Source: a virus. From it: DNA of 36,636 bases. Each line of letters opens with the position of its first letter. Within the stretch, counting starts at the first letter, position 1. The notes beneath the pieces are model-generated. The model saw only the letters and a list, made by a program, of their open reading frames with translations, did not search any database and was not told the DNA's origin. Positions 5,253 through 35,823 of this stretch are shown here, one piece after another. Both the position numbers and the translations under genes were made by a program. The DNA is taken from positions 1-36,636 of the IMG/VR virus record IMGVR_UViG_3300020185_005105; one strand, written 5' to 3'.

Positions 5253-8200
5253 ATGGCAGTAGGAGCAGGATTAAGAACACATGTAGTTGGCTTAAGAGAA
5301 GACATTGAGCGAATAGTCGCTGGCGTCAACAGAAAAGGAATAGTTATTAGGGTTAGAGCTAGTGACTTTACCCAGCCTTTAGGGCGCATGTCAGCAAAAG
5401 CTAACGAGTTCAGTAAATCTCTAGAAGCCTCTAATGCTCGCGTTATAGCCTTCGGCGCATCTGCAGCAATTATTGGTGGAGTTACAACCTCTTTTGCTCA
5501 ACTCTTCGTACAGGCTCAAAAAGTTGAAAAAATTCTTACAGATATTAATGTTGTTCTTGGCACAACTGCAAGCAATCTTCAGAAATTTGGTGACGGTTTA
5601 TTTAAAGTCGCAAAAAATACATCCCAAGCGCTAGAGGTTGCCGCAGAGGCGGCTTTAGAATTTTCTCGTCAAGGTTTATCAATGGAAGAAACCCTCAAAA
5701 GAACAAATGATGCCCTTATTTTGACGAGATTAACGGGAATAAAAGCTGCAGACGCCGTAAAAGGTTTAACTGCAGCAGTTAATGGTTTTGCCGATGCGGG
5801 GTTATCAACCACGCAAATAATTAATAAACTTGCCGCTGTAGATGTAAAATTTGCTGTCAGCGCTGACGATTTAGTTGACGCTCTCGCTCGCGCTGGAGCA
5901 GTCGCTCAAGATGCGGGTGTTAGTTTTGACCAACTAATAGGATCTGTTACTGCAGCTCAACAAATTACAGCTCGAGGTGGCGCAGTTATAGGTAATAGTT
6001 TTAAAACAATTTTTACAAGAATCCAAAGGAGTAGTACAATCACGAGGTTGGAAGAGCTTGGGGTTGCTGTTCGAGACATTCGAGGTAACACATTGCCTGC
6101 AATTACGGTTTTGACAAACTTATCAAAAGCTTACGATCAACTCGGAGACACAACAAAGGCAGCTGTAGCGGAACAAGTTGGTGGCGTTTTTCAAATCAAT
6201 ATATTAAAAGCGGCACTTAAAGATTTAGGCAATGAAACATCCCTATACGCTCAAGCTACGAAAATATCTAGTCAAGCGACAGACGAAGCGCAAAGAAAAA
6301 ACGATCAACTACAAAAAACATTAGCAGCAATCTCTAATCAAAGCTTCACAAATCTTAGAGAACTAACTGCAAATTTAGGTGAATTAACTGTAGCACCCGC
6401 CCTAAAGGAATTCCTTAAGAGTTTTAATCAAATAGCTGAAGTTATGAGTAAACTATTTGGTTCAGAAGAAGGCGAAAGCATAGGTGGCGATTTTGCTAAA
6501 GGATTCGCTAGAGCTTTCGGTTCCGTATTAACAGGTCCTGGCTTAATGGTTGGAGCTTTAATTTTTGGCAAATTATTTCAAATGGCTTTTAAGTTTGCTA
6601 AAAATTCGGTAAAAGATATTTTACAAATAAAAACGATCAAAGATCAAGAGCTTGCCATTCAGGAAGCTATTGTTGATGCTATGGTTCAAAATGTAGCCTT
6701 AAACAAAGAATTATTCAAATTAGACGGCGACCAATTAAAGCAAGAGCAAGTCATGTTAAAATTGCTTAGCAAACAAACTGCATTTCTAGAAAAGCAAAGG
6801 CAAATAGCCTCATCTATAGCACCAGGCTTAAGGGTGGCTGGCGTAAATGAAAATTTAACCGTCACAAAAGGATCGAAAAGTAAAAATCAAAAATCTGAAG
6901 GCTTTATACCTAATTATGCATCCAAAAATGCAGCAAATAACTACGGTGGAGTTACTCCATTGGAGAAGCAGTCCGAGTTAGCTGGAGCAATGAAGGCTGG
7001 ATATCAGCCAGGCTCCATTAAATCAACTAATATAAATGGCCTAGGGAGAGTGATTTATAATGACGCGGAAACTATCAAGCAGTTCCCAAATTTAAATCAG
7101 CCAGCAATCATGCCTCCACTGAACTCAAAAGCTGGCAGAAATTATAAGGTCGACTTTAGGGCTAAGCATGGATTCAATCCTTATGAGCAAGGTGGCAGTA
7201 ATAACTCAACTTATAGTAACGGTTTTATTTCTAATTTTGCCGCCCAACCTATGGCTGTAAAATCTGCAATTCGCGCTGCCCTTAAAAAAAGAGGGGCTAG
7301 AATGCGGCCCAATGACCCCAAGCTTGATTTTCATGTTCAAAGATATTTATCGGCGACGAAAAATCGCGACTTCCCCAATGAATTCATAAATATAGGTGGC
7401 CATAAAATTAACATGAATGAAATAACCTTAGCCTTAAAAAAGCAAGGTGGCTACCATAATTCTTTTAATGAAAGTAAAGCAATTAACCTTCAGGGTAGTT
7501 CAAACAACGAAACTTATAATAGCGGCTTGATACCTAATTTTGCGCTTGCAGCGCAAAGGCTTGGAAACACAAATATTTTAAGGTTGCCGACTGCTAAAAT
7601 GGTCACTCAAACTACTCAATCAGACTTCAAAGGAAATAAAGTAAAAGGCTGGCGCACTCTTGAAGCTCCGCTTGATAACGTTTTAAAGTTCGCGGCCAGT
7701 TACAAGAAACAATTTCAAGCATTAAAAAGTTTAGGTTTTAACTCCTTGCAAAGAAAAATGTATTTTGGTAATCAGCCAGAAACATTAACAAGGTCAGATA
7801 GGCAAGGTTTGCGTAGTAAAAATTTAAATAAAAAAGGTGATACGTATGAGGGAGTATTGTTTAAAAGTGGACTTAAAAATAAAGGCTACTCCAGAACTTA
7901 TGATCCAGATTCAAAGCAAGGGTACAAGAATGCTACGGTTGATTTTGCGAAGTCTGGTAAAATCCCAATTGAGGCTAAATTCGGCAAATTTGTTCCCGCT
8001 AATTTGTTAGCTAAAAGCATAAGGCTATCTAAAGATAAATATATAGAAAATTTTTTATCAAGCAAACGTTTTTCAGGCTTAGCTGCTGAAATGTCTGACA
8101 AGAAATTAGGGGAAGCTAAGAACACTCTCGATAAAATGGGCTTCCCAGATGCCAACAGTAATTTAATTGATACAATGGGCCTATCAAGCGGTTTTATTCC

Positions 8201-11200
8201 AAATTTTTCTGTTAAAAAAATACAAAATGTTATTGATGGAGATAGCGTAGTAGCCGATGTTTTTGTTGGAACGCAATCAATTGACCATCGACTTAAAGGT
8301 GTAGATGCGGTGGAAAAAAATCAAGCATTTGGAACTAGAGCTCAAACCCTAGCTAAATCAAGATATAAAAATAACAAAGAAGGCAGGACCCTACTTGAAC
8401 GCAATAGGGTATCTAAAGGTTCTGCCGCATATAACCGAGGCCTTTTTGCTGACGAACAATTAGCAAAAGATTTAGTTGCGAAAGGCTACGGAATTCCAGA
8501 TATTGGATACCTAAATAAAGCAGAATATAAATCATATGTCAGGGACGTTGAATTCGCCCGTAAAGCTAAAAAGGGTATATGGGGAAAAAGCCATTTCAGG
8601 GAAAATAAAAAAACTGGAAAGGTAGATTATCTTCACCCAAAAGCTAAAATGTATATACATCAATGGGAACTTTCTCAAGGAAAAAAATGGTCAGATATTA
8701 ATGTTAGAAATACTAGATTTAAAGGCGCCAATCAAGCTACATATGGATACGCCTCAGGCAAAGGGTCAAAAGGGAAAAATACATATAGTTTTGGTCTGGT
8801 CCCAAACTTTTCAAATCCGCTTCAAGATGCGATTCAAAGAGAATCAAATGCTGGAGTGCCAAAATCCTTAATTCGAGTAGATCAAGATAATAGTCTGCGC
8901 TCAACCCAAAACCCTATGGGTCTTGCTGTGATCAATACTAGAGATGAACCTGCTGGAGTAAAGCAAGGTATACAAAGGGCCAAACAAATGGGAATTGATC
9001 CAAAATCCCATGGAAGTAGCTCAGGATTTTTACCTAATTTTAATACATTTACTCAACAAGGAGGTAAGGCGGTCCATAGTTCAGGTAAATATGGATTTAA
9101 AGAAAAATCAAAAGGCGCAGAAAAAGCCACAAAAGAAGCAGGTGGCGCGATGGATGGATTAATGATGAAAATGTTTGCTTTGGCCACGGTTACTTATGCT
9201 TTAGACGGAGCGTTGGGTGAAGCTGAAAGTGGAATGTCTCAATTTATGAAAGTTACGAATTCTGCCATTATGGGCTTAAGTCAAGCATCAATGGTTGCGG
9301 GATTAGGTAGAGAAACAGGAAAGAGCTTAATGGCAAAAGGGGCCCAGAAGGGTAACCTAATGGGTGGGCTTCAAAAAGCTGGCGGTTTAGGCATGATGGC
9401 CCTTGGCCCCCTTGGCGCTGCAGTAGCTGTTGCGGTTCCTGTCTTTAATTCCTTAAAGGAAAACACAACTTTATTAGACAGCGGACTCGATACTTTACGA
9501 AAATCAGCAGAAAAAACCTCAAAAGGAATTAATGTTTTGGGTTCAGCAATGACAGCAGCCACAGGAATCCAAGAAACTCGCACTAAACTTGTTGAACTAG
9601 ATGCGTCCGCGATGTCTGGCACCTATCAAGGCGAAATGAAGCGTTTAAAATTAAACGCTCAGCTAATTAAACAGCAATCCGAACTAGGAAGTCAGGCAGC
9701 CACTCTAGGTAAAAATTTAAATTTGAGTGGTAAAGAAATTCAATTGATGACTTCGGGCACAGCTGAGGGAATGAAAAAACTGCAAGAAGCAATGCTTAAA
9801 GCCGAACAGTCAATGGCTGTGCAAAATGCGATGTCAGGCTTTATACTTGGGTCGAAAGGCGGTGGAATCTTTGGCGACGATCCAGATCCTTTAATGGCAG
9901 GAATTCAAAAGTTAAATTTAGCAAATATAGTGAGCACTTCAGTGGATTCTGATAAGTTAGAAGCTAATTACGCTACAATGCTAGAAAAAGTAAAGGAAGC
10001 AGGGGCCGAAGTGAATGATGTTCGTAAAAAGCAAACCGTCGAAGGTGGTCTTTTTAATGATGTTGAAAGATTTGGGGTCCCAAAAATTATTGAAGACTTC
10101 AAAAAATCAATCTCTGAATCAGATCTAGATTTAGTCCTAAAATCCCAACTTAGTGCAGCGTTAGACGGCGGGAAAAGCTTCGAAGAAATTGCAAAATTTT
10201 TGGAAGAACAGGAAATCACAGTCAAACAATTAAATGGCAAAAATAAAAAACAAGCCAATCAAACTGAAGTCAATTTACTTTTAATGCGAGAAATCGCCAA
10301 GCAAAGAAAAAAAATTCTTACAGGTTTAAAAATAGAAAGCATTGCTTACGAAAGTCAAATAAAAATATCTAAAATGGGTCAAGATTTTGATATACAAAAA
10401 CTAGTCCATCAAAATAAAATAATTGAGTCTTTAGGAATACTTTCCAATCAGTCTATTGCCGACTTACAAATGAAAGAGAAGTCTCAAGCAATTGACAATG
10501 ATTTTAATAATAAAAAAGAAGCCCTCAACAGAGAAGCTTTGCAAGCTCAAAGAGGTATAGTAAAAGATCTTTTTACTGAAGGGGGCAAATTTAACTCTGC
10601 AGAAATGTTTGCTGATTTAAGAAAATCTTTTACAACGGCATCAATGCTAGACGCCAATATGGAGCCTTTTACACCCCTTGGTCCAGATGTTCAAGGGCCA
10701 AGGAGGCCTTCTTTCTATGCAGGCGAGAAAACATTTGAAGGAGGCACAAAACAAGCACACGAAGGGCAATTAGAAATAATCAGAAAAAATCTTACAAAAG
10801 CTGGAGAAGAACAATTAGCTGAGCAATTAGAAGGCGTGGAAAATTACCAAAGGGCAAATAATGTAACAGTGGATTATTTATTAAGCTTGAAAAACCAAGC
10901 TCACCAAGCTTCTCTTTTATATAAACTTCAAGATCAAGGAATAATTCCTGCAAATATTGAAATAGAATCACTCTTAGAAGAAATTTCAGACATGGAAAGT
11001 GCAAAGCTTGATGCGGTTAAAAAAGAGAGAGAATTTAGAATAAAAAATCTAAATTTAGTCCGCAACGAATTAGAGGCTAACTCTAAGACTGTAGAATATG
11101 CAAAAGAAAGAGCGGCAGAATACGAAAGACAAAAAGCTGCCCTCGGAGGTATTACTGGAGTAATGAAAGCGGTAGAACAAAAATACTACGAAGAAATTGA

Positions 11201-13484
11201 TTCAAGAAATGAAAACCTTAAACAAGATAAAGAAATATCTAATGCAAAGTTGCAAGTATTAACTAGCGCAAAATATCAAAAAGATTTAGCGGAATCTCTT
11301 GAGGGAACAGTCCAGAAGCAATTGATCACTGAATTAGGATCGCTAGTCGAGCAAGGAGCTCGATTAGATGCAGAAGAAGAAGTAAGAAAAAACACTCAAT
11401 TATTCGCTAAAATTTTAGAAACCAAAGTAAAAAATGAAATTAAAGAATTAAACAAAGGGGCAGGGGATGATACTGATTTACTGCAAGAAGAGTTGAGGCA
11501 GGGTAAATTTCGTAGCGAAGCTAATGCTAATTACATAACCAGTCAAAACAATCTAACTCGCCAGCAGGAAAAGTTTACTGAAGCCTTGCAACGCGGCCAA
11601 TTCGGCTTGGATGCCTTGGCCGAAATTCAGGGAGCCGTTAATGATTTAATTAAAAGCATGGAAATGGCAAAAACTCAAATGGCATTTTATGCAAATCAAG
11701 AAGGCAGCGCGGGTACTGGCAATGAAATTAAAGGAGCTGAAGCTACCCTAAAATATGCTCAAGCTCAAAAAGAATTGAACATTGAACAAAACAAAGGCAC
11801 TCTGTTCGCTGACAGTATGGCAGTTAAAATTGCTGAGGCGAATGCTGAAATGGCTCGATTTGGTGAAACTTTAGCAAATACAACTTTTGACGCCGTGCAA
11901 GATGGATTTAAGGGCTTTGTGAACGATATGATTAGTGGCACAAAATCCCTTGGGGATGCGGCTTTGGGATTTGCTCATGGCATTGTAAGTAAAATACACG
12001 AACAACTCTTAAATAGAGCAACCAGTCAAATTACCGCAGGCATATTTGAAGGTTTAGGTATGGGGGCAACAACTTCCAAACAAGGCGGAGGTATAGTTTC
12101 AAGATATTCAACTGGAGGCAGTGTTGGCAGGGTGCCCGCGATGCTTACGAATGGAGAATATGTTGTGAAGAAAAAAATCGTCGACAAACTTGGCGTTAAT
12201 GATTTGAATAAAATCAATCAAACTGGGTCACTAGAAGATTTATACAACAAGCCAAATGAAAATGGCTTCGAGATGATGAATAGTGGAGGTTTAGCGATGC
12301 CTCCTATTATAAAGTTAAAAGAAGGTGGCTCGATTCAAAACTATCTAGCGAAACGAGATCAATCCTCTGACTCAGGCTCGCAAAACGAAAGAACTATTGT
12401 GGACGGCGAGGTAGTTAACACTTTATCTAATACGATTGCTAAATTTATGGGCGGATTAGCTAAATTTAGTTTTGGAGGCAGAGTTAAGGAAGCGACTAAA
12501 AATTCATTAATTTCAGACCCGAATGACACCGCTGGAGTTAAAATAGCTAAAGGTTCAGGTTATCTGGCGGGAACGGTTGCTGGTGGATATCAAGGCTACG
12601 AAGCCCAAGCGTATAGCGGTTCAGCCCCAATTAGAGTAAACCCCCTAAATACTAGATCCATGTTGAATGTTGACCCTTCTAGCCGCTCTATGAGCGCTCG
12701 ATTTAGGGCTCAAGATGATTACAGTAGTAAGTATGGCGATTATCTTCTTGATAAATATCAACATGATGTCAATCAAAGAAATGAAAAGCTAAAAAGCAGA
12801 GCCTCAATGATGCAAGGTATCGTCAACCAAATTGGAATGATGGGAGTCATGTATGGAACCGAGCAAGCTGTACGCTCAGCATTTCAACCTGAAAAAAGAA
12901 AAGAATACCATACAAGTATTGATAACTCTCAAGTCAACGCCTTTCGAGACTATCAAGTAAACCAACAAACAAAAAGCGATAAATTTTTAAATAAAAATAC
13001 CTCAATTTCTCAAAACAATATTAGTTCAGCTTATTCTATCGGCGGCGGAAATTTATCCAGCAATGAAGAACGATTTTTTGCCAAAAATTCTGGCTACAGT
13101 GAAGGAGGTAGAGTTCATGGCCCAGCAGGCATCGATAAAGTCGGACCTGTAATGCTTGATAGAGGTGAGTTTGTAATTAAGGCTTCTAGCGTCAATAAAG
13201 TAGAAAAACAATACCCAGGTTTCTTTGATCAATTAAACACCATGAAATTCAATCAAGGTGGAGTTGTGGACCCAAGCGCAAGTTCTGCTAATGTGCAAAA
13301 CTCAGAAGTTACCAACAATCAGAGTTCTTCCAGTAATGTAACGGTTAACATTAATGTGTCAGCAGGAGGAGAAACAACTGTAAATGGAGGCGCTGGCGAC
13401 CAACAAGCTTTTGCTTCGAAAATTAAAGAAGCTGTTGTTAATGTCATTTCTCAAGAAAAAAGAGTCGGAGGAATGCTTAGGTAA
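5253..13484 (+). CDS. Tail tape measure protein with embedded nuclease cassettes (2743 aa)
   Basis: Sets tail length and is normally ejected into the cell ahead of the DNA. ATG 5253 follows AAGGAAAAAGG. Residues ~90-340 match the TP901-type tape measure core (DINVVLGTTASNL, LEFSRQGLSMEETLKR, GGVFQINILKAAL). Hydrophobic stretches lie near 427-445 and 1375-1400. Residues ~550-1260 are atypical: six GF[IL]PNF-type motifs (Gly at 550, 657, 758, 980, 1181, 1258) separate compact cassettes, two of which look like nucleases. Residues ~1400-2200 are long charged helices. A lambda-H-like C-terminal helix region lies at ~2210-2270. Two tape-measure 'MLxxGExV' motifs follow at 2297 and 2634, and the end (VTVNINVSAG...GGMLR) is typical. 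The length far exceeds lambda H (853 aa). TMP identity is secure; cassette functions are inferred from motifs. Confidence 0.95.
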   Translation: MAVGAGLRTHVVGLREDIERIVAGVNRKGIVIRVRASDFTQPLGRMSAKANEFSKSLEASNARVIAFGASAAIIGGVTTSFAQLFVQAQKVEKILTDINVVLGTTASNLQKFGDGLFKVAKNTSQALEVAAEAALEFSRQGLSMEETLKRTNDALILTRLTGIKAADAVKGLTAAVNGFADAGLSTTQIINKLAAVDVKFAVSADDLVDALARAGAVAQDAGVSFDQLIGSVTAAQQITARGGAVIGNSFKTIFTRIQRSSTITRLEELGVAVRDIRGNTLPAITVLTNLSKAYDQLGDTTKAAVAEQVGGVFQINILKAALKDLGNETSLYAQATKISSQATDEAQRKNDQLQKTLAAISNQSFTNLRELTANLGELTVAPALKEFLKSFNQIAEVMSKLFGSEEGESIGGDFAKGFARAFGSVLTGPGLMVGALIFGKLFQMAFKFAKNSVKDILQIKTIKDQELAIQEAIVDAMVQNVALNKELFKLDGDQLKQEQVMLKLLSKQTAFLEKQRQIASSIAPGLRVAGVNENLTVTKGSKSKNQKSEGFIPNYASKNAANNYGGVTPLEKQSELAGAMKAGYQPGSIKSTNINGLGRVIYNDAETIKQFPNLNQPAIMPPLNSKAGRNYKVDFRAKHGFNPYEQGGSNNSTYSNGFISNFAAQPMAVKSAIRAALKKRGARMRPNDPKLDFHVQRYLSATKNRDFPNEFINIGGHKINMNEITLALKKQGGYHNSFNESKAINLQGSSNNETYNSGLIPNFALAAQRLGNTNILRLPTAKMVTQTTQSDFKGNKVKGWRTLEAPLDNVLKFAASYKKQFQALKSLGFNSLQRKMYFGNQPETLTRSDRQGLRSKNLNKKGDTYEGVLFKSGLKNKGYSRTYDPDSKQGYKNATVDFAKSGKIPIEAKFGKFVPANLLAKSIRLSKDKYIENFLSSKRFSGLAAEMSDKKLGEAKNTLDKMGFPDANSNLIDTMGLSSGFIPNFSVKKIQNVIDGDSVVADVFVGTQSIDHRLKGVDAVEKNQAFGTRAQTLAKSRYKNNKEGRTLLERNRVSKGSAAYNRGLFADEQLAKDLVAKGYGIPDIGYLNKAEYKSYVRDVEFARKAKKGIWGKSHFRENKKTGKVDYLHPKAKMYIHQWELSQGKKWSDINVRNTRFKGANQATYGYASGKGSKGKNTYSFGLVPNFSNPLQDAIQRESNAGVPKSLIRVDQDNSLRSTQNPMGLAVINTRDEPAGVKQGIQRAKQMGIDPKSHGSSSGFLPNFNTFTQQGGKAVHSSGKYGFKEKSKGAEKATKEAGGAMDGLMMKMFALATVTYALDGALGEAESGMSQFMKVTNSAIMGLSQASMVAGLGRETGKSLMAKGAQKGNLMGGLQKAGGLGMMALGPLGAAVAVAVPVFNSLKENTTLLDSGLDTLRKSAEKTSKGINVLGSAMTAATGIQETRTKLVELDASAMSGTYQGEMKRLKLNAQLIKQQSELGSQAATLGKNLNLSGKEIQLMTSGTAEGMKKLQEAMLKAEQSMAVQNAMSGFILGSKGGGIFGDDPDPLMAGIQKLNLANIVSTSVDSDKLEANYATMLEKVKEAGAEVNDVRKKQTVEGGLFNDVERFGVPKIIEDFKKSISESDLDLVLKSQLSAALDGGKSFEEIAKFLEEQEITVKQLNGKNKKQANQTEVNLLLMREIAKQRKKILTGLKIESIAYESQIKISKMGQDFDIQKLVHQNKIIESLGILSNQSIADLQMKEKSQAIDNDFNNKKEALNREALQAQRGIVKDLFTEGGKFNSAEMFADLRKSFTTASMLDANMEPFTPLGPDVQGPRRPSFYAGEKTFEGGTKQAHEGQLEIIRKNLTKAGEEQLAEQLEGVENYQRANNVTVDYLLSLKNQAHQASLLYKLQDQGIIPANIEIESLLEEISDMESAKLDAVKKEREFRIKNLNLVRNELEANSKTVEYAKERAAEYERQKAALGGITGVMKAVEQKYYEEIDSRNENLKQDKEISNAKLQVLTSAKYQKDLAESLEGTVQKQLITELGSLVEQGARLDAEEEVRKNTQLFAKILETKVKNEIKELNKGAGDDTDLLQEELRQGKFRSEANANYITSQNNLTRQQEKFTEALQRGQFGLDALAEIQGAVNDLIKSMEMAKTQMAFYANQEGSAGTGNEIKGAEATLKYAQAQKELNIEQNKGTLFADSMAVKIAEANAEMARFGETLANTTFDAVQDGFKGFVNDMISGTKSLGDAALGFAHGIVSKIHEQLLNRATSQITAGIFEGLGMGATTSKQGGGIVSRYSTGGSVGRVPAMLTNGEYVVKKKIVDKLGVNDLNKINQTGSLEDLYNKPNENGFEMMNSGGLAMPPIIKLKEGGSIQNYLAKRDQSSDSGSQNERTIVDGEVVNTLSNTIAKFMGGLAKFSFGGRVKEATKNSLISDPNDTAGVKIAKGSGYLAGTVAGGYQGYEAQAYSGSAPIRVNPLNTRSMLNVDPSSRSMSARFRAQDDYSSKYGDYLLDKYQHDVNQRNEKLKSRASMMQGIVNQIGMMGVMYGTEQAVRSAFQPEKRKEYHTSIDNSQVNAFRDYQVNQQTKSDKFLNKNTSISQNNISSAYSIGGGNLSSNEERFFAKNSGYSEGGRVHGPAGIDKVGPVMLDRGEFVIKASSVNKVEKQYPGFFDQLNTMKFNQGGVVDPSASSANVQNSEVTNNQSSSSNVTVNINVSAGGETTVNGGAGDQQAFASKIKEAVVNVISQEKRVGGMLR
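7527..8180 (+). other. PD-(D/E)XK-like nuclease cassette inside the tape measure protein
   Basis: This cassette lies between the third and fourth GF[IL]PNF motifs (residues ~760-977). It shows the order expected of a PD-(D/E)XK fold: Glu866 in a helix start (GDTYEGVLF), Asp897 (ATVDFAKSG), then Glu907-Ala-Lys909 (IPIEAKFGK), with a helix after (LLAKSIRLSKDKYIENFL). The D-x9-E-x-K spacing fits metal-dependent nucleases. PD-(D/E)XK families are very diverse and motif-only calls can be wrong, so this is a moderate call. The first ~90 residues of the cassette are not recognised. Confidence 0.55.
8211..8588 (+). other. SNase-like (thermonuclease) cassette inside the tape measure protein
   Basis: Residues ~987-1112, right after the fourth GF[IL]PNF motif, match staphylococcal nuclease in order. 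VIDGDSV gives Asp995 and Asp997 (calcium ligands), HRLKGVDAVE gives Arg1013, Asp1018 and Glu1021 (counterparts of R35, D40, E43), AYNRGLFAD gives Arg1062 (R87). The domain ends ARKAKKGIWG, the usual C-terminal signature. The Pro before the catalytic Glu is replaced by Val. All catalytic and metal-binding positions I can align are retained, so an active Ca-dependent DNA/RNA nuclease is predicted. Confidence 0.8.
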
Positions 13485-27137: not shown

Positions 27138-28205
27138 ATGAATGTACTATTAACTGCAAGCTTCGACAAAGGATTGTTCACCAACGGACTACAGCAAAAT
27201 ATTGTTTTTTTAGCTGAACTATTGCAGGATATAGGGCATACCCCTATAGTGGCGGTAAATCATAGTATCGATAAATGTGTAGACCCTCCTACAGGCATTC
27301 TAATTATAGAAGAAAAAGAAATCCTCGACTATGATTACGGTTACATTTGCCAAACAGGATATGTATTAGATAATCAGATGGTCGACAAAATTAAAGATAA
27401 AAATCCCGACACTAAAAATATACATATTCACTATGGCAACAGAATGCTTGCTGATATAGAGCAATGCAAATGGGACAATATTGCAATCTCTGGTCACAAA
27501 GTTGATGAGATATGGACATCGCCCCACTATGAAATAGCGATACCATACTTCAAGGCTTACTATAATACTCAAAAAGTCTTTGTGCTGCCTTATATTTGGG
27601 AGCCAAAATATATTGACATGCATGACAGGTTATGGACGAAAGCTGGCAAAAGCTGTAAATATGACCCCAAGAGACCGAAGAATATAGCCATAGTTGAGCC
27701 AAACTTAAACATGACAAAAAACTGCATGCCTTCTATTTTAATAGCCGAAGAAGCATTGCGCACCAATATTGATTTATTTGACAGGCTTACAGTTTATTGT
27801 TCTGACACAATTCGAGAAAAGAAATACTTTCGCTCTTGGATGTGGAATTTGAATTTACCAAAAGTTGGGAAAGTAGACTTTTCTCCAAGGAAAAGAATTT
27901 CAACCATCTTTTCATCAGAAGCCAATATAGTTATATCTCATCATTTAATGAACGCTTTAAATTATACTCACTTAGAAGCGCTTCACTTAAATATTCCATT
28001 AGTTCATAATTCAGAGTACATGAAAGGTGCGGGATATTATTATCCTGATTATGACATCCAAAAAGGGGCAAAGCAATTAATTGACGCTCTTACTTATCAT
28101 AATCAAAATTTAGAAGAATATAAATCTAGAGCAGAAAAAATAAAATATCAATTTTCGAGGCACAACCCCTTAGTTAAAGCGGAATATAAAAAATTATTTT
28201 CATAA
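27138..28205 (+). CDS. DUF2827-type glycosyltransferase-like protein, copy 1 (355 aa)
   Basis: Matches the DUF2827 family by its N-terminal FTNGLQQNIVFLAELLQDIG, the mid-protein IAIVEPNLNMTKNCMPSILI and the C-terminal HLEALHLNIPLVHNSEYMKG followed by GYYYPDYD. That last stretch is the family's counterpart of the sugar-nucleotide-binding end of GT-B enzymes. The family is uncharacterised; a GT-B-like glycosyltransferase role is inferred from fold-level similarity and from the surrounding glycosyltransferases. The next gene is a clear paralogue starting at the stop. A GTGTA string lies 15 bases before the ATG. Family membership is confident; substrate unknown. Confidence 0.85.
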   Translation: MNVLLTASFDKGLFTNGLQQNIVFLAELLQDIGHTPIVAVNHSIDKCVDPPTGILIIEEKEILDYDYGYICQTGYVLDNQMVDKIKDKNPDTKNIHIHYGNRMLADIEQCKWDNIAISGHKVDEIWTSPHYEIAIPYFKAYYNTQKVFVLPYIWEPKYIDMHDRLWTKAGKSCKYDPKRPKNIAIVEPNLNMTKNCMPSILIAEEALRTNIDLFDRLTVYCSDTIREKKYFRSWMWNLNLPKVGKVDFSPRKRISTIFSSEANIVISHHLMNALNYTHLEALHLNIPLVHNSEYMKGAGYYYPDYDIQKGAKQLIDALTYHNQNLEEYKSRAEKIKYQFSRHNPLVKAEYKKLFS

Positions 28206-29303
28206 ATGAAGATTGGTATAACTTTAGATATGTCTATAGCATTCTGGGCAAATGGAATGCAACAAAACATTGTCTTTCTTTATAGCCTATTAAAACAAAT
28301 ACCAGAAAATGATTGCTATTACATAACTCACAAAAAACCAGCTTACATTTTAAATAAAAAACATCAAGGCATGATGCTCGACGACCTCATGTCAGATGAT
28401 GGAGAGGCATTGGACGCTTTAATTATTGCTGGCTTTGATCTTCTTCCAGAAATGTATGATAAATTAAAGCAAAGAAATCCTAATATTAAAATTATATTAA
28501 TTCACTTCGGCAATAAACTAATGGACGATATTCATTATACAGTAGCTCCATCAAACTATAAAAAACAGCCCATTACTCCACCAAAATATTTATCTCAAAT
28601 CTGGATATCGCCCCATCATGAATACGGCAAAGAATATATAAAAACTTATTACCAGCATGAAGATGTTAGAGTTATACCTTATATATGGGATCCTTATTTT
28701 GTACAAGAAAAAATAAAAGAATTAAAAAATAAAAATTTATCACCATTTTTTAGCGCAGAAAAAAGTCGATCTGTCTGCGTTTTTGAGCCAAACATTTCTC
28801 ATCTAAAAAACTGTATTATTCCTGTCGCAATATGTGAAAGATTTGATTCACTACATCCCGATAAATTAAATGCGATCAATGTATTCTCTACCGATAGAAT
28901 TAGAGAAAAAGAGTATTTCTCCTCGTTAATGAAAAAATTTAAAATAGTGCAAAAAAAAGATTTTATATTTTTTAATAATCGCTGGGGTAGTTTGGATGCA
29001 TTAAGTAAATTTGGCAGTATTGTTGTGAGTCACCAAATTAATAATGAATTGAATTATTCTCATTTTGAGACATTATACTTAGGTCTTCCTTTAATTCATA
29101 ATTCTCCTAGACTAGAAAGTCATGGATACTATTACCCTGAGTTTGACGTAAAAATGGGAGCCAATCAACTCATGAGCGCAGTATTAAACCATCAGATTGT
29201 CCAACAAGATTACCAAAGGGAATCAAGAGAGTTTCTTCTTCCCTTTAGCCCTTATAATCAAAAAAATGCAGGAATATATAATTTATATTTAAATGATGAT
29301 TAA
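28206..29303 (+). CDS. DUF2827-type glycosyltransferase-like protein, copy 2 (365 aa)
   Basis: A tandem paralogue of the preceding gene, with equivalent blocks in order: FWANGMQQNIVFLYSLLKQI, VFEPNISHLKNCIIPVAI, ELNYSHFETLYLGLPLIHNS and GYYYPEFDVKMGA. It begins directly after the upstream stop and overlaps the GT25 gene by 11 bp. The copies have diverged well beyond recent duplication, so they probably add different residues or linkages. It has no signal peptide, so it acts in the host cytoplasm if it is a sugar-nucleotide-dependent enzyme. Substrate and acceptor cannot be read from the sequence. Confidence 0.85.
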   Translation: MKIGITLDMSIAFWANGMQQNIVFLYSLLKQIPENDCYYITHKKPAYILNKKHQGMMLDDLMSDDGEALDALIIAGFDLLPEMYDKLKQRNPNIKIILIHFGNKLMDDIHYTVAPSNYKKQPITPPKYLSQIWISPHHEYGKEYIKTYYQHEDVRVIPYIWDPYFVQEKIKELKNKNLSPFFSAEKSRSVCVFEPNISHLKNCIIPVAICERFDSLHPDKLNAINVFSTDRIREKEYFSSLMKKFKIVQKKDFIFFNNRWGSLDALSKFGSIVVSHQINNELNYSHFETLYLGLPLIHNSPRLESHGYYYPEFDVKMGANQLMSAVLNHQIVQQDYQRESREFLLPFSPYNQKNAGIYNLYLNDD

Positions 29304-30429
29304 TAGAGTATCAAAATCTTTTTTTATTAATTTAGACCGCCGAACGGATAGATTAGACCATATACATAAAACTTTACCTTTTTATGCAGAAAGGTTTTCA
29401 GCTGTAGATGCTAAAGATCTTACATTGACTGAAGAAATTAAAAAGCTATTTCCAGAAAAATACCACCAACTCACAAAAGCAGAAATCGCATGCGCGTTAA
29501 GTCATTACAGATTATGGAAGCAATTAACTCAAGATAAAAATAGCAATAACTATCTAATTCTAGAGGATGATGTAGTTTTCGAGGATGGTTTTCTTGAATT
29601 ATGGAATAACAAATTTAGTCAAGATTTACCCAAAAACTTCATGATCGCTTATCTGGGTGGCTGCCAACCTTGGAATAAAACGCATTATCATAATGTACTT
29701 GAATATAAAAACAATCATTTTTTTACAGTAAAAAAGAACGACTTCTTCACTCCAAACGACTACTACTGGCATATGAACGCATCTTCATATATAGTCAGCA
29801 AGCAAGCCGCCTCCTTACTTTGCCAATGGGTTGAGCAGTTTGGCTTTAATGCTGCTTTTGATGTTTTCATTATAAAATTCCTAACAACAAATAAATTATT
29901 CTCAGCCCCAGATAGAATACTTCATTTAAATCCGCTAATGGCTAGGCAAATTCATGAAGCGAATGGAAATATCGAAGCCGATAAAAAGTCTGACTTAAGG
30001 TTCTGCAATGATCGATTTGAAAAAGAGGAAAAGCAAAAATTAAAATTAATCTGGCAGGTTGATCCAAATAACCTAAAACAAACCTATGAAACAGATTGGA
30101 TTAGAGAAATTTTTTCAGAGCTTGATTTAGAAGAAATTATCGACACAGAATTTAAGGTTGTATCTGATGATTCCATTATTGTATATACTGATATTTGGCC
30201 AGCCAGCAAAAAAGGTGGTGACCAAGACGCTTTATATCTTTACCTCGATAAAGCTGCCAAGCAAAATAATGTCTCCATTGTTCATTTAGGCGATGAATAC
30301 ACTCATGCACGGACTGATCATTATGAAAATTTTCGCAACACATTTCGCACAACTTACAATGAGTCTGTATCTCATATGAAAAATGTCACTCAAATACCAT
30401 TAGGCTACAAGCGAGGATTCCATGATTAG
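29293..30429 (+). CDS. GT25 glycosyltransferase fused to N-terminal half of an exostosin-like domain (378 aa)
   Basis: Residues ~1-225 are a glycosyltransferase family 25 domain (LPS galactosyltransferase-like): FFINLDRRTDRLDHI, AEIACALSHYRLWKQL and the acidic metal/sugar motif E91-D92-D93 in NYLILEDDVVFEDGF. From ~293 the protein changes to the start of an exostosin-like domain (DDSIIVYTDIWPASKKGGDQ to IPLGYKRGF) and stops at once (HD, TAG). The rest of that domain appears two genes on, so this protein carries only its N-terminal half. It overlaps the DUF2827 gene by 11 bp and the sulfotransferase gene by 8 bp. The GT25 call is secure; the exostosin half is supported by how well the two pieces join. 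Confidence 0.85.
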   Translation: MMINRVSKSFFINLDRRTDRLDHIHKTLPFYAERFSAVDAKDLTLTEEIKKLFPEKYHQLTKAEIACALSHYRLWKQLTQDKNSNNYLILEDDVVFEDGFLELWNNKFSQDLPKNFMIAYLGGCQPWNKTHYHNVLEYKNNHFFTVKKNDFFTPNDYYWHMNASSYIVSKQAASLLCQWVEQFGFNAAFDVFIIKFLTTNKLFSAPDRILHLNPLMARQIHEANGNIEADKKSDLRFCNDRFEKEEKQKLKLIWQVDPNNLKQTYETDWIREIFSELDLEEIIDTEFKVVSDDSIIVYTDIWPASKKGGDQDALYLYLDKAAKQNNVSIVHLGDEYTHARTDHYENFRNTFRTTYNESVSHMKNVTQIPLGYKRGFHD

Positions 30430-31012
30430 CCACGAACACAAATGTATATTTATACATGTACCCAAAACTGCTGGCGAAAGCATTGAAACCGCTTTGATGG
30501 GTCGGCCAAACTGGGAAAACGATGATCCGAATTACGCAAGCTTAGGCTTGCCAGAAGGCAGCGAGATTGGAAAAGATAAGCATTATACTATTGCCCAATG
30601 GAAAGATCACATCAACTTTACTAATTATTTCAAATTCTCTTTTGTTAGAAACCCATGGGATTCAGCTTATTCATTTTATAGATATAGAAAAGAAAGAGAT
30701 AAGTTTGATCACAGTTTTACAGATTGGGTGAAATTAATTAATCCTAAATTCTGGAAAGAATTCTTGTCTCCACTGAAATATGTTTTATTAAACAATAAAG
30801 AGGGCGTAGACTTTATTGGAAGGTTTGAAGATATTGAGGCTGACTGGGATTATATTTGCTATAGATTATCGCAAGACATAAAACTACCTCATATAAATAA
30901 GGGGGACAACCAATCAGATTATATTGATCACTATGACAGCATTTCTCGTGATATTGTCCATGAACATCTTAAGGAAGATATAGAGTATTTTAATTATAAA
31001 TTTGAAGGATGA
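30422..31012 (+). CDS. PAPS-dependent sulfotransferase (196 aa)
   Basis: A compact sulfotransferase-2-type protein. The 5'-phosphosulfate loop is IHVPKTAGESIE (K15 the expected catalytic/PAPS residue), and the 3'-phosphate site is FVRNPWDSAYSFY (R76, S84). FIGRFEDIEADWDYIC and PHINKGDN are typical later motifs. It would move sulfate from PAPS to a sugar hydroxyl, giving an anionic glycan. The ATG lies inside the last codons of the GT25 gene and the TGA overlaps the next ATG, so it is inserted without any spacer between two parts of an exostosin-like domain. Family assignment is confident; the acceptor sugar is unknown. Confidence 0.9.
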   Translation: MISHEHKCIFIHVPKTAGESIETALMGRPNWENDDPNYASLGLPEGSEIGKDKHYTIAQWKDHINFTNYFKFSFVRNPWDSAYSFYRYRKERDKFDHSFTDWVKLINPKFWKEFLSPLKYVLLNNKEGVDFIGRFEDIEADWDYICYRLSQDIKLPHINKGDNQSDYIDHYDSISRDIVHEHLKEDIEYFNYKFEG

Positions 31013-32757
31013 AAACAATTTTTGACAAACCCTATGTATGGTCTTTTTTGGGACAAGTAAAAGGAAAGCCAACGCGCGAAAATATGCTTGCGGAACTCAA
31101 GCAAGTTCGCGGCGAACATTTTATACATATCACTGAACGCTGGAACGATCAGAACCAAATAGACGTCAAAAAATATAAAGAAATACTATCTGATAGCATT
31201 TTTGTTCCTTGCCCTAGCGGTTGGGGCGGCGCGAGAGGTTTGAAGGATTGCTTTAGGTTATATGAGGCATTAGAGGCTGGATCTATACCTATTGTCGAAA
31301 AAGATGATTTCGCCTATTTCGATAAATTTTTTCCCAATCACCCAATTCTGCAAACTCCTGATGACTGGCTTGGTATAAGTGATGATATGGAGTCTTTACT
31401 TGAAGAACCAAAAAAATTGCAAGAATATAATGAGGCATTAATAAAATGGTGGCAAGACTACAAGTCAAACTTAAAAACAGAAATCAAAAATAAGTTTTTA
31501 AATTCAAAAAAAAATATTTCTGTTATTATTCCAACTATTTGGCAAGCCAATGAATACCTCAAGAAATCCTTAATATCGCTAGAGTCTAACGCTTTTATAT
31601 CTGAAGTTTTAATTGTAAACAATGAAGTCAGTCAAACCCCCAGTTGGATAAGTGTTTTCAAGAAAGTTAAAGTATTAAATCAGAAAAAAAATTTATATTT
31701 TAACGGCAGCTTAAATCTAGCCGTTCCACTGTGTCAATCAGAGTTATGTTGCGTCTTGAATGATGACGCCAATATAGATAACGAATGCTTTGAGTTTATG
31801 TTAAACCAAGATATGAATTCTGTTGGCGCAGTGTTTATAGACCCCGCATGCATCAAGGGAGAGGGCGTACCAGATAGCCATCTTTTTAGTGGCCGCAACT
31901 TTAATGATGAAAAACTCTTGAAGCCCTATGATGAATTCTTTAATCACGGGCCTGGTATGATATTTTTCTTAAAACCTCAAAACTTCAAACCTATACCAGA
32001 AGAATTAAAACATCACTGCGGAGATAGATATATCTTTCAGTCTAATAAAAACGCTGGACTTAAAAACCTCTTCATTCAGGGCTTTCAACTAAAAATACCA
32101 TCAGTAGGTTCCGCCAGTCGATGCAGCGCAAATATTGAATCTGTGATTCGTCAGGATTATGTAGCAAGAGATAAAATATTTAACCTAAAACAAGCAAAAA
32201 AAAATGTTTTTGAATACATCAAACTTGACTTAAATTATTCACCAAAAAATAAATGGAAAATTATTTCTCATAAATTGAAATCAGGGTCTGATATTTTGTG
32301 TGTTGGTGGTGATTTATTGCAGGTGAGCGACGATATTGATATTAAAAATATTTGCGAAAAAGATATAGATATAGCTTTATCAAAACACAATTATAGCGCT
32401 TGGGGTCAAAAACTAGAAGGGGAGTTGTCGTCTTGTTTTATATACATTAAAAGCACCCCTCAGACTATTAATTTAATTGATAGTTTATTGTTTCAAATAG
32501 AGGGTATTAAAACTGATCAAAGATTTTTTAGTTATTCTGAGCAATATATTGACCTCGCTTTAGAAAAATCATTAACTGCAAGCAATATCAAATTTCAATC
32601 AATTCCAAATGATAAATTTGCTGTATCTGAAGAAATATACGGCAAAAATATAGAACATTACAAATCCAATCCTCCTGCTTATATTAATTTTGATAGAAAT
32701 GTATATACAGAAGAATTAAAAAAAATATATTTTAATGCGTATACTAATATTAAATGA
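31009..32757 (+). CDS. Exostosin-like C-terminal half + GT2-type glycosyltransferase + third GT-A-like domain (582 aa)
   Basis: Residues ~1-160 are the second half of an exostosin-like domain, beginning abruptly (KPYVWSFLGQVKGKPTREN, SDSIFVPCPSGWGG, LYEALEAGSIPIVEKDDFAY). These are the family's central and C-terminal motifs with no N-terminal part. Residues ~168-390 resemble a GT2-type domain (ISVIIPTIWQANEYLKKSL; VLNDDANID with D252-D253 as the DxD-like acid pair). Residues ~398-582 look like a third, GT-A-like region (SGSDILCVGGDLLQVSDDID) with a degraded metal motif. The start overlaps the sulfotransferase stop; the end overlaps the next gene by 23 bp. First two assignments are good; the third is tentative. 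Confidence 0.85.
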   Translation: MKTIFDKPYVWSFLGQVKGKPTRENMLAELKQVRGEHFIHITERWNDQNQIDVKKYKEILSDSIFVPCPSGWGGARGLKDCFRLYEALEAGSIPIVEKDDFAYFDKFFPNHPILQTPDDWLGISDDMESLLEEPKKLQEYNEALIKWWQDYKSNLKTEIKNKFLNSKKNISVIIPTIWQANEYLKKSLISLESNAFISEVLIVNNEVSQTPSWISVFKKVKVLNQKKNLYFNGSLNLAVPLCQSELCCVLNDDANIDNECFEFMLNQDMNSVGAVFIDPACIKGEGVPDSHLFSGRNFNDEKLLKPYDEFFNHGPGMIFFLKPQNFKPIPEELKHHCGDRYIFQSNKNAGLKNLFIQGFQLKIPSVGSASRCSANIESVIRQDYVARDKIFNLKQAKKNVFEYIKLDLNYSPKNKWKIISHKLKSGSDILCVGGDLLQVSDDIDIKNICEKDIDIALSKHNYSAWGQKLEGELSSCFIYIKSTPQTINLIDSLLFQIEGIKTDQRFFSYSEQYIDLALEKSLTASNIKFQSIPNDKFAVSEEIYGKNIEHYKSNPPAYINFDRNVYTEELKKIYFNAYTNIK

Positions 32758-34426
32758 TAGACCTTGGCATTATGAGTGCTATATTCATATTATTGATTTT
32801 TGCATAGCATACAATATAGAAGTTGATATTTTAGAAGCTTATTCAGATTCTTTGGGTGTTAAAGAATTTTACTTAAATCATTTTAGAGACAATATAAGGT
32901 ATGTTAAGGGAGTTAATAAATTAAAAGACAAATGTCTAGCTGATCCATTTACTAACATTAAATATGATAAAGTTTTTTTAGTTACCGATAACTTTATTAA
33001 AACGCAATATTTTAATTACTTTAAAAGTTTAGAGCCCAACTCAAGCGCTGACGATCAATTAATATTCATAGATCATTCTAATGAAATTCGAAACCGATTC
33101 TCTAACCATATTGACATAAGACATTTTCCAGACAAAAATAATAACTATGCTTATACATGCATTGATTTAATCTCAAAAGAAGAAAAGCAAGAATTTTTAT
33201 CACAAGAAAAACAAACCAACATATTAATATCAGCTAATCCAAGCAACATTAATATCACCAAAGAAATACAAACCTTAAATGATATTAATCCCAATGCTCA
33301 TATCCATTGGGTGTCACGCGATTTATCAAAACTAAAACAATTTAAACTCAATAACATATCTTACTATGAGTCATTAAATCAGACTGAATTAAATGAACTA
33401 TTTAAAAAATCCCATTATGTTTATGTTCCAAAATACCACAATAAAAATTATCGAACCGAATCAACAACTGGCATTTTAGGATTTGCTTACAGCTATTTGT
33501 GTCAAGTCGTATGGGGAGGCGCAAATTATAACAAGCATTACAGGCTATATTCTCCATTCGAATATTCTAAAGGTTTAGGTGTAGATGATAATTCAAATAT
33601 CAACTTAGTAGCAAAAGAACGCCGTGAACTCATAAATCATAGAAATAAAGTTTTTTCTAGCTTCCTTACTGAAAGCAAAATAAATTTATTATATTTCAAG
33701 GGCAGGAATTTTGGTAATTTTGGAGACGAACTTTCTCCATATATTGTAAAAAAAATTCTTAATAATGAAAATATAGCCGAAAACGGCAACCCAGAAAACC
33801 ATAAAAAAAATTTAATAGCGCTCGGGTCGTATATTCAAACAGCTCAGGATAATTTTTATATATTTGGGTCGGGAGTTAGAGCTTTGTTCCATGATCTCAA
33901 TTTTAACAAATTAAATATTATAAGTGTTCGTGGACCATTAACCAGAAAAGTCTTGTTGGCAAAAAATATTGATTGCCCACAGGTTTACGGGGATCCAGCT
34001 CTACTTCTCCCAGAGTTTTACCAACCAGATAAAATCACGAATCTATCAAGAAAAATTGGCGTAGTTCCGCATCTGAGTCAAATTCAAAATTTTAAAAACC
34101 CTAACCCTGCAAAGTATTTTATTATTGATCCTACCCAATATTGGAAAGTTGTCATTGATCAAATTTATTCATGTAAATGTGTTTTAGCTTCATCTCTACA
34201 TGGGTTGATTTGTGCTGATGCATACAATATCCCCAATTTGTGGTTTAGGCAAAAAATTCAAGAGGGTAATTTTAAATTCTTAGATTATTTCGCTAGCCAA
34301 GGTAGGAAAAAAGTTTATATTTCAAGTTTAGAAGAATTCTGTGAATCAAAGTTGTATAATGACGGCAATAAAATTGACATGAATATAGCATTAAAAAAAT
34401 TTAAAAACAGTAATTTATTGAAATGA
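32735..34426 (+). CDS. GT-B-like domain fused to polysaccharide pyruvyl transferase (563 aa)
   Basis: The C-terminal ~250 residues match the polysaccharide pyruvyl transferase family: NFGDELSPYIV (G330-D331-E332), LIALGSYIQTAQDNFYIFGS, SVRGPLTRKVLLAKNIDCPQ, VYGDPALLLPEFY, and SSLHGLICADAYNIP with H489. Such enzymes add a pyruvate ketal to a sugar using PEP. The N-terminal ~310 residues look like a separate glycosyltransferase (start MRILILNDRPWHYECYIHII; later HYVYVPKYHNKNYRTESTTG and VVWGGANYNK), probably GT-B, though I do not recognise the family. ATG 32735 lies inside the previous gene. Pyruvyl transferase call is strong; the N-terminal call is moderate. Confidence 0.85.
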   Translation: MRILILNDRPWHYECYIHIIDFCIAYNIEVDILEAYSDSLGVKEFYLNHFRDNIRYVKGVNKLKDKCLADPFTNIKYDKVFLVTDNFIKTQYFNYFKSLEPNSSADDQLIFIDHSNEIRNRFSNHIDIRHFPDKNNNYAYTCIDLISKEEKQEFLSQEKQTNILISANPSNINITKEIQTLNDINPNAHIHWVSRDLSKLKQFKLNNISYYESLNQTELNELFKKSHYVYVPKYHNKNYRTESTTGILGFAYSYLCQVVWGGANYNKHYRLYSPFEYSKGLGVDDNSNINLVAKERRELINHRNKVFSSFLTESKINLLYFKGRNFGNFGDELSPYIVKKILNNENIAENGNPENHKKNLIALGSYIQTAQDNFYIFGSGVRALFHDLNFNKLNIISVRGPLTRKVLLAKNIDCPQVYGDPALLLPEFYQPDKITNLSRKIGVVPHLSQIQNFKNPNPAKYFIIDPTQYWKVVIDQIYSCKCVLASSLHGLICADAYNIPNLWFRQKIQEGNFKFLDYFASQGRKKVYISSLEEFCESKLYNDGNKIDMNIALKKFKNSNLLK

Positions 34427-35823
34427 AAATAGCAATAACAACATTATATACTCCAGAAATAGCAGACTTTTCAGTAGAAGCTGTTAAGAATTTTAAAATG
34501 TATTGTGATTTACATGGTTATGATTTATTTTCATACAACAAAACATTAAAGGAGGGATTGCGCGGTAACTGGTGCAAACCTAAAGTTGTACTCAATCATA
34601 TTAAAGACTATGATTATGTTGTGTGGCTGGATAGCGATATAGCTATATTGGATATTAATCGAAAGCTAGAAGATATTATTGAACCACATAAAGACAAGCA
34701 TTTTATTGCTACGGATGACATGGGTGGGTGGAAACTAAATAATGGATTCATGATTTTTAAAAATACAAAATATGTTAAAGACATGTTGGGTGTGTTATGG
34801 AAAATGCAATCTCAGTTCACCAATAAGCGCAGGGGTGACCAAAAGTTTTTTATAAATTTTATTGAACAGCTTAAGTTAACGGAAAAAACTTACCACCTTT
34901 ACCCTCAATCAGAATTATGTGCGCCCCTCTTAATTAAAAACCATCATTCCTTTTCCGCGCATTTAATGGGCATTCACATAAATGACGTTCGTAAGGAATA
35001 TATAAAATATATCAACGATCAAAACACTACTGTTTTAAATTTAAAATCAAAACAAAAACAATTTTTACACCTAAGAGATAAATGGGCAGATTTTATTGAT
35101 GGTAAAATATTTGGCAGATATAGAAATTTACATGACTGGATTGGGTTCGTCTCGGAAACTGTTAAAATCACAAAGCCGCCCAAGGAAAAATATTCTTGCT
35201 ATAATGCTGGAAAAAAAATTGGCATAGTAACTTTATACACTTCTGAAATTGCCGATTTTGGAGCGCATGCAGAAATTAGCATCAAGCAATACGCTGAAAA
35301 ACAGGGTTATACATTTCATGTTTATCGCGAAACATTAGATAGCAATACTCATCCTAATTGGTCAAAACCTCGAGCAATTATGAATCATATTGATGATCAT
35401 GACGTTATCATATGGATGGATGCCGATACGATTATATTTAATCCTGAGAAAAAATTTGAAACTATTCTCGCTCGATGTGTTCCAATGAAAAAAGTTATTG
35501 CATGCAGAGATGTGGGAATAAAAGGTTCAATGCTTAATAGTGGAGTCTTAATGTTCCGCAATCATCAGTACTCAAAAAATATAATTAAAAAATGGATGGC
35601 ACATGAATGCGATAAGTCTGGATTATATACAGGAGGTGGAGACCAAAATGTTTTATGTGATATCTTAAAAAAAGTAGATGGATTTGGACATAATACAAAA
35701 ATTTTTCCAATGAATAAATTTAATACCGACCCTAGATTAGTTGATGATGATACATTTATATTGCATTTTATGGCTTATCCGCACCCTCTTAAAAAGATTT
35801 TTATGAGTTATTGGAATAGTTAA
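34423..35823 (+). CDS. Tandem-duplicated GT34-like galactosyltransferase (466 aa)
   Basis: Two copies of a GMA12/MNN10-type (GT34-like) domain. Copy one (~1-210): KIAITTLYTPEIADFSVEAV, NWCKPKVVLNHI, WLDSDIAI (D70-x-D72), LNNGFMIFKN and GDQKFF. Copy two (~265-466): KIGIVTLYTSEIADFGAHAE, NWSKPRAIMNHI, WMDADTII (D333-x-D335), LNSGVLMFRN and GDQNVL. Both metal-binding DxD motifs are intact, so both may be active and add different or repeated sugars. A linker with RYRNLHDWIGF joins them. ATGA overlaps the upstream gene. It is the last gene of the cassette, and the fibre gene begins about 50 bp on. Family call is good; sugar donor is unknown. Confidence 0.88.
   Translation: MKIAITTLYTPEIADFSVEAVKNFKMYCDLHGYDLFSYNKTLKEGLRGNWCKPKVVLNHIKDYDYVVWLDSDIAILDINRKLEDIIEPHKDKHFIATDDMGGWKLNNGFMIFKNTKYVKDMLGVLWKMQSQFTNKRRGDQKFFINFIEQLKLTEKTYHLYPQSELCAPLLIKNHHSFSAHLMGIHINDVRKEYIKYINDQNTTVLNLKSKQKQFLHLRDKWADFIDGKIFGRYRNLHDWIGFVSETVKITKPPKEKYSCYNAGKKIGIVTLYTSEIADFGAHAEISIKQYAEKQGYTFHVYRETLDSNTHPNWSKPRAIMNHIDDHDVIIWMDADTIIFNPEKKFETILARCVPMKKVIACRDVGIKGSMLNSGVLMFRNHQYSKNIIKKWMAHECDKSGLYTGGGDQNVLCDILKKVDGFGHNTKIFPMNKFNTDPRLVDDDTFILHFMAYPHPLKKIFMSYWNS

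Follow-up and report, generated by a model that had tools for sequence, protein, structure and literature searches.

Results

The tape measure protein and its motif array

The window, by which we mean the entire 36,636-nucleotide stretch of viral DNA analysed here (IMG/VR record IMGVR_UViG_3300020185_005105), encodes a siphophage tape measure protein (TMP) in a single open frame of 2743 residues. The protein has a TP901/PhageMin_Tail-type N-terminus (Pfam PF10145, residues 120-311, 7.8e-23), which bears out the TP901-like start proposed from the sequence alone, it matches the PHROG TMP family phrog_4211 (6.4e-45), and its gene lies in a tail module, followed by those for a lambda-L protein (7.8e-36), an NlpC/JAB protein and a Phage-tail_3 protein. 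Its N-terminal part of about 500 residues is 40-92% identical across the clade, and beyond the motif array described below it continues for about 1480 residues. The features are as follows.

5253..13484, plus strand: TMP gene, 2743 residues, matching PHROG TMP families and PhageMin_Tail
5610..6185, plus strand: TP901-type N-terminal TMP domain (PhageMin_Tail, residues 120-311; Pfam)
6900..6917, plus strand: motif 1, GFIPNY, residue 550
6918..7220, plus strand: cassette 1, from family K3, which supplies the conserved first cassette in many TMPs of the clade; modelled as compact
7221..7238, plus strand: motif 2, GFISNF, residue 657
7239..7523, plus strand: cassette 2, family K8 (7 members in the set); compact in the model
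7524..7541, plus strand: motif 3, GLIPNF, residue 758
7542..8189, plus strand: cassette 3, family K5 (17 members), with an E-D-ExK signature (E866, D897, E907, K909)
8190..8207, plus strand: motif 4, GFIPNF, residue 980
8208..8792, plus strand: cassette 4, SNase, family K9 (6 TMPs), assigned by Pfam score, invariant residues and PDB profile
8793..8810, plus strand: motif 5, GLVPNF, residue 1181
8811..9023, plus strand: cassette 5, from family K1, which supplies the conserved last cassette in the clade (61 TMPs)
9024..9041, plus strand: motif 6, GFLPNF, residue 1258, end of the array
9387..9443, plus strand: hydrophobic segment 3' of the array, residues 1379-1397

Six copies of a G[FL][ILV][PS]N[FY] motif thus bound five cassettes, and the six GF[IL]PNF-type motifs bracketing cassettes of 77-222 residues, as described in the sequence-only reading, stand, the lengths being counted from motif to motif. 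In 500 shuffles of the TMP the mean count was 0, and the other open reading frames of the window contain no copy. The peptide borne by the linkers reads [AS]-x-G-[FYL]-[IV]-P-N-[FY]-A. Synonymous codons of the motif copies agree barely above expectation (0.549 versus 0.500), so the motif is selected as a peptide and not as DNA, and a DNA-level recombination site was rejected by the same test. In a structure model of the array, domains 1, 2, 3 and 5 are confident and the motifs fall into low-confidence linkers; the whole modelled array found no match in the PDB with Foldseek. The motif presumably acts as a linker or docking peptide, and possibly as a processing site. Interruption of the TMP by a homing endonuclease, intron or intein was rejected, as the frame is uninterrupted and a Pfam scan of the TMP found no homing-endonuclease or intein family.

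The cassettes of the window

Cassette 4 is a staphylococcal nuclease (SNase) homolog with an intact active site. Its Pfam match (residues 1013-1111) scores 21.6 bits against a cut-off of 21, the range over the window and its relatives being 21.6-24.1 bits, and its profile matches solved thermonucleases in the PDB at 1e-7. When aligned to thermonuclease, the catalytic-type residues D, R, D, E and R lie at positions 997, 1013, 1018, 1021 and 1062, and all five are invariant across six divergent TMP copies. The SNase-like cassette suspected from the sequence is thereby supported; the region that would form its OB-fold is of low confidence in the array model, and this model has no PDB match. The same family, flanked by motifs, occurs in two relatives (L097 and L113) with N-termini 43-47% identical to that of the window, and it sits in a slot that is exchanged among relatives.

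For cassette 3, the sequence-only reading had suggested a PD-(D/E)XK-like enzyme. Here the E-D-ExK signature held up, as among 15 copies of the family E109 is near-invariant and D140, E150 and K152 are invariant, but the nuclease fold did not: the model is confident and compact (pLDDT 86.8, pTM 0.84), and Foldseek found no fold match to it in the PDB or in the viral BFVD (best E 0.6). As the model matches no known fold, we do not assign the cassette to PD-(D/E)XK; that reading comes from the signature only, and a second nuclease is unproven.

The remaining three cassettes had been described as compact and unrelated to each other. Compactness is seen in the model for cassettes 1 and 2, but the second part is not quite right, because the first and last cassettes of a relative (L002) are weakly similar (31%, E 1e-6). 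Cassettes 1 and 5 belong to the families that the clade conserves at the start (K3) and end (K1) of the array, and are thus nearly fixed terminal elements and not free cargo.

Related TMPs and their cargo

The modular architecture recurs in related TMPs. Among 79 long TMPs gathered by N-terminal homology alone, the motif playing no part in their choice, 75 have at least two motifs, with a maximum of 11. The 422 cassettes collected from 135 TMPs group into about 123 families, 70 of them singletons, and most families show no recognisable enzyme. Besides the SNase, which the window combines with other domains, several effector-type domains can share one polypeptide in relatives (GNAT, GHKL, P-loop): GNAT cassettes exceed the Pfam cut-off in three TMPs, GHKL, P-loop and PcfJ-like cassettes occur, as do HAD-like and metallopeptidase-like ones, and HExxH, as of a metallopeptidase that might separate the domains of a polyvalent protein, is found in a few relatives' cassettes only, none being seen in those of the window. 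The commonest cargo is a superfamily with an FE...DF...DAK pattern, including K2, K6 and K10, which hhalign joins with K20, K21, K27, K30, K41 and K44 into one group but not with cassette 3 of the window. By signature only, this superfamily may be PD-(D/E)XK-like; a search of Pfam and the PDB with its profile, allowing E values as high as 10, gave nothing nuclease-like. A match to NMNAT was seen in two arrays, its place within them not being pinned down.

Exchange at the motifs

Cassettes are swapped precisely at the motifs. In one pair of contigs (L003/L004), the sequences are 99.7% identical upstream and 99.9% identical over 6954 nt downstream of one cassette that is wholly different (1044 versus 834 nt), with both breakpoints inside motif codons. 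Other pairs with N-termini 99-100% identical have exchanged the SNase for K44 (L144/L145) and K2 for K10 (L170/L172). Beyond the first pair, 51 of 75 alignment-block ends lie no more than 30 nt from a motif, against 11.8 expected (p<=0.0005). Cassette-sharing statistics were taken from non-redundant TMPs, duplicate contigs having been removed. Relatives further contain a tandem cassette duplication (98.8% amino acid identity) and near-empty slots. Related TMPs thus clearly vary in this region instead of sharing the same residues, and the proposal that cassettes can move between phages has proved correct: they have been swapped, duplicated and emptied at the motifs.

Discussion

What could a tail gain from carrying such an array? 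We favour, as probable though well short of certain, a role of the cassettes as TMP-borne effectors that are ejected with the genome, a soluble payload exchanged between phages. The TP901-like N-terminus and the long C-terminal part of the carrier would keep up its normal work in the tail, while the middle would form a row of independently folding soluble domains, with the motif carried by the disordered linkers in between. In other siphophages the TMP is known to exit the tail either before the DNA or together with it. Doing likewise at attachment, the TMP described here would bring its cassettes to the inner membrane or into the cytoplasm, where they could act immediately, earlier than any phage gene expression. 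Their most likely role would be enzymatic, with host defences, competing DNA or host regulators as targets. The payloads would be an SNase in the window and acetyltransferase-, GHKL-, P-loop-, HAD- and metallopeptidase-like domains in relatives. As every cassette forms a whole domain with a copy of the same peptide on either side, we propose that motif-to-motif recombination yields an in-frame TMP, and that the payload could therefore be replaced quickly while the tail stays unchanged.

Delivery into the cell, catalytic activity and targets are what we infer here. Cytoplasmic delivery of effectors is consistent with known TMP behaviour and with the enzyme-like content of relatives. With TurboID placed on ManZ, an inner-membrane protein, the lambda TMP becomes labelled during injection (PMC13190303), and the polyvalent proteins that phages inject include ART, kinase and GNAT domains (PMC5512222). 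It also counts for this reading that a hydrophobic segment lies within the array in just one of 86 TMPs. Several points stand against it. Most cassette families show no recognisable enzyme, the commonest cargo superfamily is PD-(D/E)XK-like by signature only, the cassette 3 model, though confident, resembles no structure in the PDB or BFVD, and the SNase is poorly modelled in the array. In addition, folded domains of 200 residues, in the several TMP copies of each tail, must fit a tube of about 4 nm or refold afterwards. More tentatively, and with the odds slightly against so full a version, the TMP may represent a new class of phage weapon, an exchangeable multi-effector cartridge. Its dedicated peptide, [AS]xGF[IV]PNFA, would be a universal joint by which cassettes are fitted into the lumen of the tail or tagged for release, and the members of one large clade would trade single cassettes with anti-host or anti-defence enzymes, delivered along with the genome before expression.

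Alternatively, the cassettes could serve genome entry by adapting the TMP to the periplasm or the inner-membrane partners found in different hosts, with swapping following host range instead of payload. TMPs do set the inner-membrane requirement, and in lambda-type TMPs a region around residues 300-400 tracks ManYZ dependence (PMC13190303). In most TMPs the array lies about 100 residues past a hydrophobic segment, and the conservation of the K1 and K3 end cassettes is as expected of a structural role. However, none of the SNase, GNAT, GHKL ATPase and P-loop domains has a fold that binds the envelope, and most such enzymes generally have their usual substrates and cofactors in the cytoplasm; we regard this explanation as unlikely.

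Selfish mobile elements at the level of domains, whose nucleases cut cassette-free alleles and for which the motif is a tolerated insertion point, are improbable. Nuclease-like content is frequent, duplicated and near-empty slots would suit such elements, and phage TMP genes are often interrupted by homing nucleases (PMC10448857). Yet non-nuclease cassettes are exchanged too, unrelated cassettes take the place of whole existing ones and do not fill a vacant site, the arrays gave no match to a homing-endonuclease family, and the motif is kept as a peptide and not as a DNA target. Most improbable is a length or packing filler of neutral globular domains shuffled by recombination, for although array length does not follow that of the remaining TMP (r=0.05) and most cassettes have no recognised function, the invariance of the SNase residues in six divergent copies and of D, E and K across the 15 cassette 3 copies points to selection on activity.

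In the literature covered, with most subscription papers and all preprints outside its scope, we found no description of a motif-bounded cassette TMP and no paper joining GFIPNF with a tape measure protein. Polyvalent proteins and the TMP-derived effectors of contractile injection systems come nearest. The former, known from phages and conjugative elements, carry GNAT, ART, kinase and metallopeptidase domains, are thought to enter with the DNA, and likewise unite several unrelated effector-like enzyme domains in one large polypeptide (Iyer et al., 2017; PMC5512222). Tape measure proteins go unmentioned there, whereas here the carrier is the ruler of the tail, one recurring peptide bounds the domains, and swaps occur at that peptide. 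Tme (PMC11126660), with a C-terminal endonuclease of demonstrated activity, and Sle1 (PMC13277306) are likewise derived from TMPs and carry an exchangeable functional domain in a tail-like particle. However, they belong to genome-less bacterial contractile particles and have one C-terminal effector domain with DUF4157 in or beside it, whereas the clade of the window has a siphovirus-type phage tail and carries up to ten cassettes, bounded by motifs, inside the TMP. A Tme-type identity was rejected, as a Pfam scan found no DUF4157 in the window TMP and its tail-tip genes are lambda-like. The MuF polymorphic toxins of temperate phages are also virion proteins with exchangeable toxin or enzyme domains and proposed delivery during DNA injection, but they are associated with head or portal and have a C-terminal toxin and a small candidate immunity frame downstream (PMC5576092), while the window's cassettes are multiple, tail-borne and internal. 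With about 1480 TMP residues following the cassettes, a MuF or polymorphic toxin identity was rejected as well. Catalytic domains within TMPs are also found in TM4, with its peptidoglycan-hydrolase motif, and in YomI of SPbeta, a transglycosylase, but these are fixed cell-wall hydrolases that aid entry, and we know of no motif-bounded exchange among TMP enzymes of this type.

If the cassettes do enter the cell, they would amount to a catalogue of more than 100 mostly unknown domain families acting at the very start of infection, with a recognisable peptide marking the limits of each. It would then become testable how phages face defence systems ahead of any expression, and the large size and variability of some TMPs would be explained. 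Although uncultured, the clade occurs commonly in viromes from marine and fresh waters, and the system went unseen because there is no close cultured member. A tblastn search of the arrays against 50,697 GenBank phages gave no match; by N-terminus, the nearest isolates have SPbeta-type TMPs at about 27-30% identity.

The window tape measure protein and its motif

The window, a 36.6-kb virus contig, encodes a tape measure protein (TMP) with a PhageMin_Tail domain at residues 120-311 (Pfam, 7.8e-23). As its gene is followed 3' by those of lambda-L-like, NlpC/JAB and Phage-tail_3 proteins, the region is assigned to a siphovirus tail module. Immediately 3' of this module lies a phage-borne glycan-modification cluster.

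5253-13484, + strand: tape measure protein ORF, 2743 aa; PhageMin_Tail and several PHROG TMP families
27138-35823, + strand: glycan-modification cluster; two DUF2827 paralogues, a GT25 glycosyltransferase, a sulfotransferase, and GT2/RXYLT1-type, pyruvyl-transferase-type and GT34-type proteins

The six motifs, G[FL][ILV][PS]N[FY], which a sequence-only reading had described as bounding five cassettes, are indeed present, and 500 shuffles of the protein yielded none. Of the two enzyme types suggested by that reading, the SNase, in cassette 4, is supported by a match above the Pfam cut-off, a 1e-7 profile match to thermonuclease structures, and catalytic-type residues that are invariant in six copies. 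Cassette 3, the PD-(D/E)XK-like candidate, has the residue signature, with D, E and K invariant and a further E near-invariant in the order of these enzymes; its confident, single-domain model, however, found no structural match in the PDB or BFVD (Foldseek), so that we do not count it among the established nucleases.

In the array model, the motifs fall in low-confidence linkers between confident domains. Over 313 copies of the motif, G and N being preset by the search pattern, P occurs in 99%; position -2 is A or S in 83%, and position +1 is A in 63%. The conserved entity is the motif peptide, not the DNA, because the synonymous codons of copies within one gene vary almost as freely as those of the gene (0.549 identical versus 0.500 expected); the peptide may serve as a flexible joint, for docking or as a processing site.

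Distribution and architecture

Collecting by a DNA pattern of the motif gave some 70 large ORFs, each bearing 2-8 motifs. To avoid such motif-based choice, a second search used an alignment (A2) restricted to the TMP N-terminus: among the 79 resulting ORFs with a length of 900 aa or more, 75 carry two or more motifs, one carries a single motif and three none, one of which (L183) has near-variants. The cassette-TMP pattern is real, unusually clear and widespread; no description of it was found in the literature searched. The window's N-terminus is matched at 40% identity or more by each of the 44 motif-bearing TMPs in which this region is complete, which makes them one TMP clade. The motif is absent from the distant Firmicutes TMPs compared, and the nearest isolated phages, SPbeta-like, reach 27-30% identity over part of the TMP N-terminal region only. 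Genomic occurrences lie in MAG bins, Halobacteriovorax, Flavobacteriaceae and Verrucomicrobiales among them, which leaves the hosts uncertain.

The 422 cassettes of 135 non-redundant TMPs fall into 123 families (phmmer), 70 of them single. Among 89 TMPs with a full N-terminus, family K3 (window cassette 1) comes first in 35, and K1 (window cassette 5) or K4 last in 56. The plan is therefore an N-terminal TMP part, K3 as first end piece, variable cargo, K1/K4 as second end piece and the remaining TMP. Cassettes number three per TMP in the median and ten at most; array length is uncorrelated with remaining TMP length (r=0.05), and a hydrophobic segment lies within the array in only 1 of 86 TMPs. 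One ORF, from nt 8850 of contig L141, has 11 motifs and ten cassettes and reaches the end of the stretch examined, so that it is possibly longer. In L186 and L003, near-empty slots leave 15-16 aa from motif to motif.

Cassette replacement

Five close relatives, chosen by homology, carry motifs of this kind, and their cassettes vary: BLAST of the pieces matches from motif to motif, with some cassettes replaced. The clearest case is the contig pair L003 and L004, 99.7% identical upstream over 4344 nt and 99.9% downstream over 6954 nt, which differ in a single wholly different cassette (1044 versus 834 nt) with both junctions inside motif codons. Both TMPs also have a nearly empty slot and one 169-aa cassette in tandem duplicate (98.8% aa identity; L003:2344-3375, same in L004), a snapshot of cassette duplication. 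Further clean replacements are L144/L145 (SNase to K44) and L170/L172 (K2 to K10). Over 19 chosen pairs, 51 of 75 array BLAST block ends are no more than 30 nt away from a motif, versus 11.8 expected (p<=0.0005, only indicative as the pairs are not independent).

Where the N-termini of two TMPs are 95% identical or more, the cargo is the same in 61% of pairs; below 55% N-terminal identity, 81-95% of pairs share none. Cassette identity may far exceed that of the carrier, as in the SNase family K9 (80% versus 55% for the N-terminus). When viral contigs were scanned with the SNase cassette only, 6/6 relatives started exactly at a motif, in a long ORF with 4-6 motifs.

Proposed delivery, and cargo

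Where would such cassettes act? In other siphophages, TMPs exit the tail and arrive at the inner membrane, lambda gpH being labelled during injection by TurboID placed on ManZ, an inner-membrane protein (PMC13190303); one contractile system has a TMP-related effector with nuclease activity (PMC11126660). By inference from these precedents, the cassettes would be ejected together with the genome and act prior to phage gene expression; this proposed delivery into the cell is the best-supported reading. A DNA-degrading SNase would have to spare or precede the phage's own DNA, or target RNA or competing DNA. In combining nuclease-like, GNAT and ATPase domains, the cassettes resemble phage polyvalent proteins (PMC5512222); we rate cassette TMPs as kin to injected multidomain effectors, a known kind, and see a fair chance that they merit their own class.

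The commonest cargo superfamily in relatives (K2, K6, K10, K20, K21, K27, K30, K41 and K44, joined by hhalign) has an FE..DF..DAK pattern with conserved E, D and K, for which no database match was found. Clearer are GNAT, over cut-off in three TMPs, a GHKL ATPase slightly under its own cut-off, a weak P-loop match, PcfJ-like content and one HTH; HAD-like, kinase-like and HExxH patterns were spotted by eye. The last cassette of three TMPs (L033, L048, L194; 762-800 aa) combines a GHKL ATPase region and an HExxH metallopeptidase-like motif in one piece. Two arrays from alignment A1 gave a candidate nicotinamide-nucleotide adenylyltransferase (NCBIfam, 1.2e-5), whose place within the arrays was not found; if real, this enzyme might counter NAD-depleting defences.
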